Assembly: GCF_002995495.1 (NCBI RefSeq)
Contig: NZ_PVZV01000004.1
Location: forward strand, 248,001 to 312,000
Direction: 5' to 3'
DNA length: 64,000 nucleotides
From: Actinocorallia populi
Lineage (GTDB): Bacteria > Actinomycetota > Actinomycetes > Streptosporangiales > Streptosporangiaceae
The position numbers and the translations under genes are program-made. The notes beneath the pieces are model-generated. The model made no database searches, was not told the DNA's origin, and saw only the letters and a program-made list of their open reading frames with translations. Shown piece by piece: positions 2,006 to 5,504 of the stretch. How positions within the stretch are numbered: position 1 is the stretch's first letter; each line of letters starts with the position of its first letter.

Positions 2006-2299
2006 ATGGCGCAGACGTGTGGGCATCTGGACCAGGTGGACGTGGGGGCGGGGCCCTCGGGGGAGGGGTGCGAGGAGTGCTCGCGGAGCGGGGGGCGGTG
2101 GGTGCATCTGCGGATGTGCCGGACGTGTGGGCATGTGGGGTGTTGTGATTCGTCGCCGAACCGGCATGCGACGGCGCACCGGGCGGCCACGGGGCATCCG
2201 GTGGTGTCCTCCTTCGAGCCGGGGGAGGACTGGTGGTGGTGTTACGAGGACCAGGTGATGTTCGGGGTCGAGGGGGCTCCGGATTATGCGCATTCGTGA
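2006..2299 (+). CDS. UBP-type zinc finger protein
   Basis: 97-aa protein that is almost entirely a UBP (ubiquitin-hydrolase type) zinc finger: CGHLDQV near the N-terminus, CEEC, the CRTCGHVGCCDSS core, HATAHRAATGHP and an aromatic WWWCYED tail. The Cys/His spacing fits the zf-UBP family, which in eukaryotes binds ubiquitin C-termini; the role in actinobacteria is not established. The ATG follows a purine-rich stretch (GGGAAGGATGGGGG). The next gene starts about 20 bases after the stop, so it is probably co-transcribed with the flavoprotein and kinase downstream. Inference: a small binding or regulatory subunit of that module. Confidence 0.8.
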   Translation: MAQTCGHLDQVDVGAGPSGEGCEECSRSGGRWVHLRMCRTCGHVGCCDSSPNRHATAHRAATGHPVVSSFEPGEDWWWCYEDQVMFGVEGAPDYAHS

Positions 2300-2319
2300 G
2301 ATTCGTGTTGCATGGGCGC

Positions 2320-4044
2320 ATGATCCAGGTGGATGAGGGCGCCGAGCGGGGCGCCGGGCGGGCCGGGGCGGCTGAGCAGGGGGAGCAGGAGCGCAAGGCG
2401 GTCCTGCTGACCGTCGACGATGATCCGGCGGTGTCCCGGGCGGTGGCGCGGGACCTGCGGAAGCGGTACGGGCGGGAGTTGCGGGTCGTGCGGGCCGGGT
2501 CGGGGGGCGAGGGGCTCGAGGTGCTCCGGGAGCTCAAACTCCGGGGGCAGCGGGTGGCGGTGGTGCTGGCCGACTACCGGATGCCGGAGATGAGCGGTAT
2601 CGAGTTCCTCGAGGCGGCGATGGACCTCTTCCCGCGGGCGCGGCGGGCGCTGCTGACGGCCTACGCCGACACGGACGCGGCCATCGCGGCGATCAACGTG
2701 GTGGACGTGGACCACTACCTGCTCAAGCCCTGGGACCCGCCGGAGGAGAAGCTCTACCCGGTGGTGGACGCGATGCTGGAGGCCTACCGGCGGGAGCCCG
2801 ACGCGCCCGTCGCGGAGACCAAGGTGATCGGGAACCGGTGGTCGCGCCCGTCGTACGAGGTCCGCGACTTCCTGGCGCGCAACGCGGTGCCCTACCGCTG
2901 GCTCTCGGACTCCTCGCCCGAGGCGGTGCGCCTGCTCAAGGCGGCCGAGGTGGAGGGCGGCGAGCTTCCGGTCGTGATCACTTCCGAGGGGACGGCGCTG
3001 GTCGCCCCCTCCGGCGCGGAGCTCGCCGACGCGGTGGGGCTGTCCACCACCCCGGCCACCGACTTCTACGACCTGATCGTCGTGGGGGGCGGGCCGGCGG
3101 GGCTGGGGGCGGCCGTCTACGGGGCCTCCGAGGGGCTGCGGACGCTGCTGGTGGAGCGGCAGGCCACCGGAGGCCAGGCCGGGCAGTCGTCGCGGATCGA
3201 GAACTACCTGGGCTTCCCCGACGGGGTGTCGGGGGCGCAGCTCACCGACCGGGCGCGGCGGCAGGCCGTCAAGTTCGGCACCGAGATCCTCACCTCCTGC
3301 GACGTCGTCGGGCTGCGGGCCGAGGGGCCGGCGCGGGTGCTCACCTTCGGCGACGGGCGGGAGATCTCCGCGCACTCCGTGATCATCGCGACCGGGGTGT
3401 CCTACCGGGAGCTGGAGGCGCCCGGGGTCGCGGACCTCACCGGCCGCGGCGTCTTCTACGGCTCGGCGATGACCGAGGCCGCCCACTGCACGGACGAGGA
3501 CGTCTACCTCGTGGGCGGCGCCAACTCCGCGGGCCAGGCGGCTGTCTACTTCGCCAGGTACGCGCCCTCGGTCACCCTGCTGGTGCGGGGCGAGTCCCTG
3601 GAGGCGAGCATGTCCCACTACCTGATCGAGCAGCTGCGCGGCCTGGACAACGTGCACGTCCGGCTGCGGACCCAGGTCACCGGGGCGTTCGGCGACCAGG
3701 GCCTGGAGCGGTTGTGCCTGACCGGCCCCGAGGGCGGCGGCGAGGAGGTGCCCGCGGGCCACCTCTTCGTCTTCATCGGCGCCCGCCCGCACACCGACTG
3801 GCTCGAGGGCGTGGTGGAACGCGACGAACGCGGCTTCATCCGGACCGGCACCGACCTGGTGGTGGACGGGCGGCGGCCGGCCGACTGGCTGCCCGACCGC
3901 GATCCGTGGCTGCTGGAGTCCAGCATGCCGGGCGTGTTCGTGGCCGGCGACGTGCGGTCGGACTCGGTCAAGCGGGTCGCCTCCGCCGTCGGCGAGGGTG
4001 CGATGGCGGTGACGCTCGTCCACCGCTACCTGGGCGCGTCATGA
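2320..4044 (+). CDS. REC / glutaredoxin-like / thioredoxin reductase-like fusion flavoprotein
   Basis: 574-aa three-part protein. Residues ~26-150 are a response-regulator receiver: DDD at 33-35, phospho-acceptor Asp85 in VLADYRMP, Lys136 in LLKPW. Residues ~165-245 resemble a glutaredoxin-like fold, but the CxxC position reads WSRPS. Residues ~250-574 are a thioredoxin-reductase-like FAD/NAD(P)H enzyme: GGGPAGLG at 257-264, GGQAGQSSRIENYLGFP, and GGANSAGQAA. The redox CxxC of true thioredoxin reductase is absent; that segment reads YGSAMTEAAHC. So this is not a classical thioredoxin reductase. A GTG farther upstream is possible; I chose the ATG nearest the receiver domain. Its stop overlaps the kinase start (ATGA). 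Likely a phosphorylation-controlled flavin oxidoreductase; substrate unknown. Confidence 0.85.
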   Translation: MIQVDEGAERGAGRAGAAEQGEQERKAVLLTVDDDPAVSRAVARDLRKRYGRELRVVRAGSGGEGLEVLRELKLRGQRVAVVLADYRMPEMSGIEFLEAAMDLFPRARRALLTAYADTDAAIAAINVVDVDHYLLKPWDPPEEKLYPVVDAMLEAYRREPDAPVAETKVIGNRWSRPSYEVRDFLARNAVPYRWLSDSSPEAVRLLKAAEVEGGELPVVITSEGTALVAPSGAELADAVGLSTTPATDFYDLIVVGGGPAGLGAAVYGASEGLRTLLVERQATGGQAGQSSRIENYLGFPDGVSGAQLTDRARRQAVKFGTEILTSCDVVGLRAEGPARVLTFGDGREISAHSVIIATGVSYRELEAPGVADLTGRGVFYGSAMTEAAHCTDEDVYLVGGANSAGQAAVYFARYAPSVTLLVRGESLEASMSHYLIEQLRGLDNVHVRLRTQVTGAFGDQGLERLCLTGPEGGGEEVPAGHLFVFIGARPHTDWLEGVVERDERGFIRTGTDLVVDGRRPADWLPDRDPWLLESSMPGVFVAGDVRSDSVKRVASAVGEGAMAVTLVHRYLGAS

Positions 4045-5504
4045 CCGGGCGCCTGGGCCCGGCGGAGCTGCGCGAACTGTTCCTGTTCGAGCACCTCGAC
4101 GACACGCAGCTCGACTGGCTGGCCGGGCACGGCTGGGTGGAGGACGCCGAGGCCGGCACCGCGGTGCTGGCCGAGGGCGCGCCCGCCGAACGGCTGGCGG
4201 TGCTGCTGTCCGGCACGCTCCGGCTGTGCCAGCGGGTCGGCAGGGACGAGGTCGAGGTCGTCCGCACCGACCAGGCGGGCGTCTACGCCGGAGCCACCCG
4301 CGCCTACCTGCCCGAGGGCGACACGCAGTACACCGCCACGGTCTGGGCGGTCACCGGCTGCCGGTTCTGGTTCCTGAGCAGCGCCGACTTCTCGGAGTTC
4401 ATGCACCGCTGGTTCCCCATGGCCATCCACCTGCTGGAGGGCCTGTTCCTGGGGATGCGCGCCAACCAGGCGGTCGTCGCCCAGCGCCAGCAGCTGCTCG
4501 CGCTGGGCGCGCTGTCGGCGGGGCTGACCCACGAGCTCAACAACCCGGCGGCCGCCGCCGTCAGGGCCGCCGACGCGCTGCGCGGGCGGGTCGCCGGGAC
4601 GCGGCGCAAGCTGGCGATGCTCGCGCACGACCAGATCGACCCGCGGCTGCTGATGCTGCTCGTCGACGTGCAGGAGGAGGCGGTCCAGCGGATCGCGGCG
4701 GCGCCGAAGCTGAGCGCGGTGGCCGAGGCCGAACGCGAGGACGAGCTGACCGACTGGCTGGAGGACCACGAGGTGGGGGAGGCCTGGGAGCTGGCGCCGA
4801 TCTTCACCGGGGCGGGCACCACCACGGACTTCCTGGACCGGCTGGCGGAGTCCGCGCCCCCGGGGCTGCTGGAGGGCGCGGTCCGCTGGCTGGCCTACAC
4901 CCTGGAGGCCGAGCTGCTGCTGGGCGAGATCACCGAGTCGGTCACCCGGATCTCCAGCCTGGTCGGCGCCGCCCGGCAGTACTCCCATCTGGACCGGACC
5001 CCCTACGAGCGGGTGGACGTCCACGAGGGCCTGGAGAGCACCCTGGTCATGCTGGGGGCCAAGCTGGAGGGCGTGCGGGTGGTCACCGAGTTCGACCGGT
5101 CGCTGCCGCCCGTGCCGGTGTTCGCCGGGGAGCTCCACCAGGTGTGGACGAACCTGATCGACAACGCGGTGCAGGCCATGGGCGGCTCCGGCACCCTGAC
5201 CCTGCGCACCGCCCCGGACGGCGACCACGCGCGCATCGAGGTCCGCGACACCGGCCCCGGCGTGCCCCCGGAGCTCAGGGGCCGCATCTTCGAGCCGTTC
5301 TTCACCACCAAGCCGGTCGGGCAGGGCACCGGCCTGGGCCTGGACATCTCCTACCGGATCGTGGTCGGCCGCCACGGCGGCGACCTGAACGTCGAGTCCG
5401 AGCCCGGCGACACCCGGTTCATCGTGCGGCTTCCCCTGAGAGATCGGCCTTCGTCGGAGGGCGCTGCGGAGGATCGGGGAGAAGCGGCCGGATCCGCACC
5501 CTGA
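4041..5504 (+). CDS. Sensor histidine kinase with cyclic-nucleotide-binding-like domain
   Basis: 487 aa, no membrane segment. Residues ~1-140 form a cNMP-binding (Crp-like) beta-barrel (LFEHLDDTQLDWLA ... VLLSGTLRL). The phospho-acceptor His164 lies in SAGLTHELNNPA, a PhoQ/NtrB-like H-box. The C-terminal ATPase shows NLIDNAVQAM (N-box), DTGPGVP (G1) and FFTTKPVGQGTGLGL (F/G2). It overlaps the preceding flavoprotein gene by four bases, so it is the obvious phosphodonor for the receiver fused to that enzyme. It should be a cytoplasmic sensor of a nucleotide or redox ligand. Its last 86 bases overlap the 3' end of a convergent gene. Confidence 0.9.
   Translation: MTGRLGPAELRELFLFEHLDDTQLDWLAGHGWVEDAEAGTAVLAEGAPAERLAVLLSGTLRLCQRVGRDEVEVVRTDQAGVYAGATRAYLPEGDTQYTATVWAVTGCRFWFLSSADFSEFMHRWFPMAIHLLEGLFLGMRANQAVVAQRQQLLALGALSAGLTHELNNPAAAAVRAADALRGRVAGTRRKLAMLAHDQIDPRLLMLLVDVQEEAVQRIAAAPKLSAVAEAEREDELTDWLEDHEVGEAWELAPIFTGAGTTTDFLDRLAESAPPGLLEGAVRWLAYTLEAELLLGEITESVTRISSLVGAARQYSHLDRTPYERVDVHEGLESTLVMLGAKLEGVRVVTEFDRSLPPVPVFAGELHQVWTNLIDNAVQAMGGSGTLTLRTAPDGDHARIEVRDTGPGVPPELRGRIFEPFFTTKPVGQGTGLGLDISYRIVVGRHGGDLNVESEPGDTRFIVRLPLRDRPSSEGAAEDRGEAAGSAP

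Follow-up and report, generated by a model that had tools for sequence, protein, structure and literature searches.

Two-component systems of the CheB and PleD type have a receiver domain fused to an enzymatic output domain. AhpF, in which an N-terminal thioredoxin-fold part made up of two folds is fused to a flavoprotein resembling thioredoxin reductase (TrxR), works by two CxxC pairs. Proteins of the 8c16 type, which have a TrxR-like fold, are not known to possess a CxxC, a receiver or a kinase. The locus described here lies in a 64,000-nucleotide stretch of the Actinocorallia populi genome (contig NZ_PVZV01000004.1, positions 248,001 to 312,000; the window in what follows) and encodes, in this order, a UBP-type zinc finger protein (P0002), a flavoprotein in which a receiver and a glutaredoxin-like domain precede a TrxR-like module (P0001), and a soluble histidine kinase with a Crp-like sensor domain (P0003). 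We propose that these proteins form a two-component system, the output of which would be an NAD(P)H flavin oxidoreductase acting by a route other than dithiol exchange, with the zinc finger as adaptor; judged from sequence, this statement taken as a whole has an even chance of being correct. The zinc finger and flavoprotein genes are 20 bases apart and the ATG of the kinase gene at 4041 overlaps the TGA of the flavoprotein gene at 4042–4044, just as an earlier note on this DNA had described (Table 1). An alternative, longer frame for P0001 from GTG 2233 would overlap the zinc finger gene and is not favoured.

The receiver of P0001 carries the residue set of a response regulator, with an acidic pair (Asp33 and Asp34), the phospho-acceptor Asp85, Thr113 and Lys136 all invariant in a 32-row alignment (A4, drawn from 31 of 39 intact-receiver references, without L148, L153, L157, L160, L168, L172, L177 and L180). 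By the same rule the receiver is intact in 79 of 161 proteins, which comprise the window protein, 80 loci of an actinobacterial draw and 80 named loci out of 128 relatives. For the actinobacterial draw 80 of 99 flavoprotein rows besides the window were fetched; the other 19 are mostly partial or low-scoring and include G042:C253, a match of high score truncated at the start of its contig. In the AlphaFold2 model the receiver is followed by a glutaredoxin-like stretch and then by the TrxR fold, and Pfam matches P0001 to Response_reg and Pyr_redox_2. Pfam did not call a glutaredoxin domain in P0001 itself; seven of ten middle domains tested match PF00462 at E < 1, with L158 and L204 above its cut-off. 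The modelled middle domain has a beta-alpha-beta-alpha-beta-beta-alpha secondary structure, Pro217, at the cis-Pro position, is invariant in the aligned flavoproteins, and a 29-row profile finds its best PDB-sequence match (3.2e-8) in 2lqo, the M. tuberculosis protein Rv3198.1, with WSxxS against WCxxC. On this profile match and secondary structure the domain fits the glutaredoxin/mycoredoxin fold and its cis-Pro position; the structural comparison of the flavoprotein covered residues 246–574.

No CxxC is found at the TrxR site or at the glutaredoxin site in any of the 161 proteins, the window's included (trivially so for the glutaredoxin site of L214, which has no middle domain in the part read), and the motif occurs elsewhere in the sequence of four of them. 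At the glutaredoxin site Ser175 is present in 72 of 78 intact-receiver rows. The patterns used to scan the named loci included the NSAGQ motif of the family, so that CxxC-bearing relatives may be under-sampled there; the actinobacterial set, chosen by score alone (E ≤ 1e-60), likewise has none. The double loss that had first been seen in P0001 is real and, as far as the aligned sequences go, it is a trait of the family and not a peculiarity of the window protein.

Within the sequence fetched around the flavoprotein at 161 loci (at most 8 kb to each side), a kinase of the same family as P0003 is present in 74 of the 79 loci with an intact receiver and in none of the other 82. Among the misses, L090, L096 and L182 end at contig edges 399, 539 and 0 bases downstream, the contig of L082 ends within a kinase seen by tblastn, and the two kinases of the L159 genome (Aliterella) lie on contigs other than that of the flavoprotein. 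The gap to the nearest matched kinase stretch is at most 60 bases in 63 of the 74 loci, and the flavoprotein strand carries 85 of 86 kinase copies. Across 296 actinobacterial genomes, that of the window included, all 36 with the kinase also match the flavoprotein, and for 47 of 53 kinase hits the distance to a flavoprotein is no more than 5.5 kb. The full-length kinase and flavoprotein also occur in the same six of 146 cyanobacterial genomes (p 8e-11) and are adjacent in four; the limits for full length (kinase E < 1e-150, flavoprotein E < 1e-270) were set after a gap in the tables had been seen, and one of the six, Aliterella, was the centre of the draw, the flavoprotein already being known there. 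At 1e-60 the kinase profile matches 33 of the 146 genomes, in the remaining 27 covering the kinase part and some or none of the Crp-like domain. Control of the receiver by the kinase would seem highly probable on these sequence data, and it is from the observed co-occurrence that we infer phosphotransfer from one to the other.

P0003 is matched by cNMP_binding and HATPase_c in Pfam, and a 34-row alignment (A2, with 33 of 38 references) shows the H, N and G boxes to be present, His164, Asn375, Asp403/Gly405/Gly407 and Gly429/Gly431/Gly433 being invariant. In the AlphaFold2 model the Crp-like domain is followed by a long helix with His164, a helical block, a second dimerisation helix and the ATP-binding domain, and the fold-comparison rows shown for this model are histidine kinases or related sensor structures. 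The term cNMP-kinase, applied to the protein previously, is doubtful: only two of the 34 aligned kinases (L165 and L168) keep both Glu and Arg in the pocket for cyclic nucleotides, and Ala85 and Tyr97 occupy these positions in P0003. Sensing of cAMP by the Crp-like domain was considered and rejected, as the cyclic-nucleotide motif is lost. Two or three kinase copies are found at eight loci. Such tandem paralogues follow a single flavoprotein in L075, L077, L079, L080, L081, L154 and L158, as though more than one sensor supplied a common output.

Judged by record titles, receiver-bearing flavoproteins accompanied by the kinase are present in Actinomycetota, Cyanobacteriota (L158, L161, L164), Pseudomonadota (L163), Sphaerobacter (L165), Gemmatimonadota (L166), Acidobacteriota (L169, L184), Verrucomicrobiota (L176) and Bacteroidota (L167, L171, L173–L175, L178, L180). 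In L223, from a Deinococcus plasmid, the flavoprotein gene shares 4 bases with that of an annotated ATP-binding protein, and the locus also holds a member of the kinase cluster. The kinase lies downstream of the flavoprotein in 65 loci and upstream in nine, and three Bacteroidota (L173, L178, L180) have the kinase first, followed by flavoprotein and then zinc finger; that the set is retained while the gene order changes argues for a joint function. Conserved triads had been suggested for actinomycetes: the adjacency is indeed kept, over a wider range that crosses phyla, while the exact order varies.

In 33 loci a Crp-like domain takes the place of the receiver, as identified by a profile match to the Crp-like region of the kinase and confirmed by Pfam in the five tested (L130, L135, L139, L140, L141). 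A simple pattern for the cyclic-nucleotide motif matched none of these 33 flavoproteins. PGAP names some of them ‘cyclic nucleotide-binding domain-containing thioredoxin-disulfide reductase’, of which the thioredoxin-disulfide reductase part is unsupported because the CxxC is missing. Another 43 loci, among which L102, cut at its contig start, is counted, have an N-terminal region of degenerate or uncertain receiver character and lack a nearby kinase of the family.

A search of the 8.25 Mb genome gave no zf-UBP besides the zinc finger P0002, which scores 48.3 bits against a cut-off of 22.7. Its closest solved chain is 2ida (2.5e-32), a bacterial protein deposited as hypothetical, which is matched at 4.3e-55 by the finger beside the Crp-fused flavoprotein of Mesorhizobium (L222). 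Ten Cys/His columns are invariant in 18 aligned fingers (A3, with 17 of 21 references), and Cys5 and His7 of P0002 are missing in seven of the 18. In HDAC6 the Arg of the CGRY sequence has a role in binding the C-terminal tail of ubiquitin. None of the 18 aligned fingers has an Arg at this position, where P0002 has Ser49 beside Asp48, and binding of a ubiquitin-type tail was rejected since the pocket Arg is not conserved. The human USP20/33 fingers recognise peptides other than ubiquitin (PMC13376213) and can serve as a model for the adaptor proposed here.

A zinc finger gene accompanies the flavoprotein at 43 of the 161 loci (28 of 79 with an intact receiver, 8 of 33 Crp-fused and 7 of 49 others). 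With 91 copies of zf-UBP in the 296 genomes, an estimated one per 10 Mb or so, the expected number in the 1.9 Mb of flank is well below one. The flavoprotein family is present in 48 of the 68 actinobacterial genomes that have a zf-UBP and in 21 of the 228 that do not (odds ratio 24, p 6e-23), the corresponding figures for cyanobacteria being 4 of 5 and 4 of 141 (p 2e-5), and in L089 the kinase is itself fused to a zf-UBP. The zinc finger is a frequent but dispensable neighbour. The idea that it is a partner of the other two proteins gains from an adjacency far above chance, and has to be loosened in comparison with the kinase, which accompanies 74 of the 79 intact receivers; a functional link to the kinase and flavoprotein is, from sequence, somewhat favoured.

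The TrxR part of P0001 superposes on the L. lactis TrxR 5mh4 with a root-mean-square deviation (rmsd) of 1.8 over 301 residues. The model is nearer to this flavin-reducing form than to the flavin-oxidising one (5mjk, rmsd 6.8), which in one unrelaxed AlphaFold2 model is suggestive only. The Rossmann glycines Gly256, Gly258, Gly261 and Gly399 are invariant in the 32 rows, with Gly399 kept in 159 of 160, and a group of family-specific residues is near-invariant among the 160, namely Tyr380 (159), Asn402 (160), Ser432 (159), Tyr434 (160) and Arg552 (160). Of the motifs earlier taken to be kept, Asp85 and Lys136 of the receiver and the FAD/NAD(P)H glycines are conserved, and the NADPH 2′-phosphate motif HRRxxxR is half gone, with only its first Arg (Arg423) remaining. 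Binding of FAD and of NAD(P)H is predicted, and an NAD(P)H-flavin redox activity of the flavoprotein is probable.

A number of observations weigh against the proposed system. The half-lost HRRxxxR motif leaves the electron donor uncertain, and the HisKA match to P0003 is weak (0.013). Six of the 53 actinobacterial kinase hits are not beside a listed flavoprotein, and in two of the six cyanobacterial genomes kinase and flavoprotein are on different contigs. L112, L114 and L122, which have no kinase, keep the Asp, Thr and Lys of the receiver and fail the rule for an intact one only by a Cys in the acidic pair. On a FastTree phylogeny of 160 rows, which leaves out L182 and for the kinase count also L082, L090 and L096, the intact receiver needs four changes and kinase adjacency five; related loci are not independent, so that the correlation of kinase with receiver rests on few evolutionary events. 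Adjacency of the zinc finger changes 21 times on the tree, and 51 of the 79 intact-receiver loci have no zinc finger in the fetched flank. Mirror-tree correlations over 26 loci (kinase–receiver 0.89, kinase–TrxR 0.92, receiver–TrxR 0.89) do not separate co-evolution from shared descent and are not used as support.

The near-invariance across phyla of the cofactor-site and family-specific residues, suggesting a retained reaction site, speaks against an alternative in which the flavoprotein is a sensor or scaffold without turnover, its FAD and NAD(P)H reporting the redox state to be passed on through the receiver, the kinase or the finger. Such a role would agree with the loss of both thiol sites and of half of the NADPH phosphate motif, with the adaptor-like character of the zinc finger, and with the swaps of sensor domain (Crp-like or receiver), which suit a signalling hub. 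Degenerate receivers are, however, tolerated while the flavin core stays conserved, and we regard this alternative as rather unlikely. Unlikely too is a reductase of disulfides or low-molecular-weight thiols with its thiols supplied in trans, where Cys390, a separate thioredoxin or bound mycothiol or glutathione would replace the CxxC. Among the intact-receiver proteins 65 of 78 have the solitary Cys390, as do 29 of 33 that are Crp-fused, the middle domain, with its WSxxS, best matches a glutaredoxin, and in L139, L228 and L229 the Crp-fused form and its finger follow a thioredoxin gene in a dnaJ-clpB-trxA run. On the other hand 13 of the 78 with an intact receiver lack Cys390, in 33 of the 43 with a degenerate receiver Met or Leu takes its place, a single cysteine cannot make the usual intramolecular dithiol, and the thioredoxin of that run is matched in 4 of 168 loci, the fourth (L199) weakly. 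As the sole catalyst Cys390 was ruled out, not being universal in the family. That P0001 is an ordinary thioredoxin reductase with neighbours by chance is very improbable in spite of its overall fold and the thioredoxin-disulfide reductase name on some Crp-fused relatives, given the absence of CxxC throughout the family, a TIGR01292 score of 204.5 bits that fails the 343.45 cut-off, a co-occurrence far above chance, and a separate canonical trxB, with CATC in its translation and 35% identity, which is the only other match to P0001 in the genome at E ≤ 1e-10.

The two-component system with a non-dithiol flavin output might then operate as follows. The soluble kinase would sense a ligand or state through its Crp-like domain and autophosphorylate on His164, the phosphate passing to Asp85 in the receiver of the flavoprotein, and phosphorylation of Asp85 would switch the TrxR-type FAD/NAD(P)H module. 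Electrons would run from NAD(P)H to FAD and, most likely, directly to a non-dithiol acceptor, because neither the TrxR module nor the middle domain has a CxxC. For the cysteine-free mycoredoxin-like domain a remaining role in binding or docking is most likely, and the UBP finger most likely serves as a peptide-reading adaptor that would bring a target to the kinase–flavoprotein pair. In the sister group the Crp-like domain is fused to the flavoprotein, and the same kind of sensor may thus act with or without a phosphorelay. A flavoenzyme switched by phosphorylation and reducing something other than thioredoxin, as put forward in the earlier note, is the best reading of a family in which none of 161 members has a CxxC; its activity and acceptor are what we infer. 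The core of that idea stands, with a weaker zinc-finger link and a far wider taxonomic range than proposed.

Table 1. Position of the three genes in the window, with their domains and predicted functional sites.
Feature	Position	Strand	Basis
UBP-type zinc finger protein P0002, 97 aa	2006..2299	+	zf-UBP 1.2e-12
Receiver/glutaredoxin-like/TrxR-like flavoprotein P0001, 574 aa	2320..4044	+	Pfam, AlphaFold2 model pLDDT 86.5
Receiver domain, residues 28–144	2401..2751	+	Response_reg 1.5e-12, model, invariant residues
Asp85, predicted phospho-acceptor	2572..2574	+	sequence, 32-row alignment
Glutaredoxin/mycoredoxin-like domain, residues 167–238, cysteine-free active site	2818..3033	+	model, profile match 2lqo
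WSRPS (W174–S178) at WCxxC position	2839..2853	+	sequence, profile alignment
TrxR-like FAD/NAD(P)H domain, residues 249–573	3064..4038	+	Pyr_redox_2 6.6e-34, structural Z 35.7
YGSAMTEA (Y380–A387) at TrxR CxxC loop	3457..3480	+	sequence, family alignment
ATGA start/stop overlap, flavoprotein/kinase	4041..4044	+	sequence
Soluble histidine kinase P0003, 487 aa	4041..5504	+	Pfam, AlphaFold2 model pLDDT 87.2
Crp-like (cNMP_binding fold) sensor domain, residues 1–123, without cyclic-nucleotide Glu/Arg	4041..4409	+	cNMP_binding 2.1e-10, model, motif check
His164, predicted phospho-accepting histidine (AGLTHELNNP)	4530..4532	+	invariant, 34 kinases
Extra helical block, residues 201–271, between two dimerisation helices	4641..4853	+	model
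ATP-binding catalytic domain, residues 323–467	5007..5441	+	HATPase_c 3.2e-27; N375, D403, G405, G407 invariant

Clustering of the neighbour genes over 169 loci showed no fourth conserved partner among the clusters listed. Those other than kinase and zinc finger have no constant distance or strand, are limited to close relatives, or lie antisense to the kinase (13 loci). Ten cluster representatives were typed by Pfam as an ABC transporter ATPase (18 loci), a second ABC transporter, an MFS protein, a luciferase-like monooxygenase, a GDP-mannose dehydratase, DUF924, S4, DUF4032, a calcineurin-like phosphoesterase and a zinc alcohol dehydrogenase; clusters of 14 and 10 loci, which include the window's own upstream genes, are outside these ten. 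In L112, L114, L122 and L125 the next gene after the degenerate-receiver form belongs to one and the same cluster; Pfam types the L112 copy as a calcineurin-like phosphoesterase. The Crp-fused flavoprotein and zinc finger end a dnaJ-clpB-trxA run in L139, L228 (2177–7233) and L229 (2168–7296), the last two being Rhodococcus and Streptomyces plasmids where the full run reads dnaK-grpE-dnaJ-cbpM-clpB-trxA; clpB alone is near L188 and L190. A general role in chaperone function or heat resistance was set aside, this dnaJ-clpB-trxA context occurring in 3 of 168 loci only. On a Tsukamurella plasmid (L227, 9656–12641) an S-(hydroxymethyl)mycothiol dehydrogenase gene comes directly after the flavoprotein–kinase–finger set. 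A mycothiol or formaldehyde role is not general, the dehydrogenase-fold cluster being present in five loci and nearest to the set in the two from Tsukamurella. On a Nostoc plasmid (L224, 9797–12091) a transposase gene and a gene for a bestrophin-type channel lie between flavoprotein and kinase, and L158 has a flavoprotein–kinase gap of similar size. Upstream of the set in the window are two tRNA-Met (CAT) genes (1469–1543 and 1791–1865) inside a 134-nt direct repeat (1424–1557 and 1746–1879, 95% alike), followed by a second repeat of 43 nt (93%); the repeats end about 90 bases before the zinc finger gene.

If the proposal holds, phosphorylation would directly gate a redox enzyme, and a well-known fold would have been adapted to chemistry for which its defining cysteines are not required. 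The names ‘thioredoxin-disulfide reductase’, ‘FAD-dependent oxidoreductase’ and ‘ATP-binding protein’ hide a conserved system, and the bacterial UBP fingers, with 2ida as a solved structure, gain a partner set that can be tested. Put at its broadest, the picture is of an undescribed signalling system in about nine bacterial phyla, where a phosphorelay or a fused Crp-like sensor would switch a flavoenzyme made of a dead mycoredoxin and a cysteine-free TrxR, with the finger as a motif-reading adaptor independent of any ubiquitin system and a new kind of non-dithiol NAD(P)H redox chemistry in a stress response; in this extended form it is tentative, its chances falling a little short of even. A literature search on the triad, the Crp-fused reductase and the bacterial UBP finger found no description among the titles and opening abstract lines listed for open-licence papers, which is weak evidence of absence. 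A profile search of the PDB gave no chain that stands out as a member of the family, the best being ordinary thioredoxin reductases over the TrxR part.

Among known proteins AhpF (4xvg/1hyu) heads the Foldseek rows when these are ranked by E-value (1.4e-32 over 595 columns); it superposes poorly (TM 0.38, rmsd 21.8), and the VIA-align comparison covered residues 228–574 only. Compared with AhpF the window protein has one glutaredoxin-like fold and no CxxC, and has a receiver in addition. The middle domain has WSxxS where 2lqo, deposited as a putative glutaredoxin and which we take to be mycoredoxin-1, has WCxxC. The FAD/NAD(P)H fold is that of the low-Mr TrxB proteins (Z up to 35.8), from which P0001 differs in having lost the CxxC and half of HRRxxxR, with GDVRSDSVKRVASAVGEG where the trxB product of the same genome has GDVVDHVYRQAITAAASG. 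The likeness to 8c16 (Z 28.4, 302 aligned, rmsd 3.0) is accompanied by a sequence match weaker than that to TrxR. The zinc finger shares the Pfam zf-UBP family with those of HDAC6, USP5 and USP20/33, and P0002 matches HDAC6 and USP chains weakly. FFTR and DDOR are cyanobacterial TrxR relatives that have also departed from the standard electron path; they retain the CxxC and have lost the NADPH motif (PMC9025218), whereas the flavoprotein here has changed in the opposite half, with loss of the CxxC. As in the CheB and PleD type, a receiver is fused to an enzyme, and the proposed system would belong among the two-component systems that have enzymatic outputs, set apart by an output that is a TrxR-type flavoprotein.

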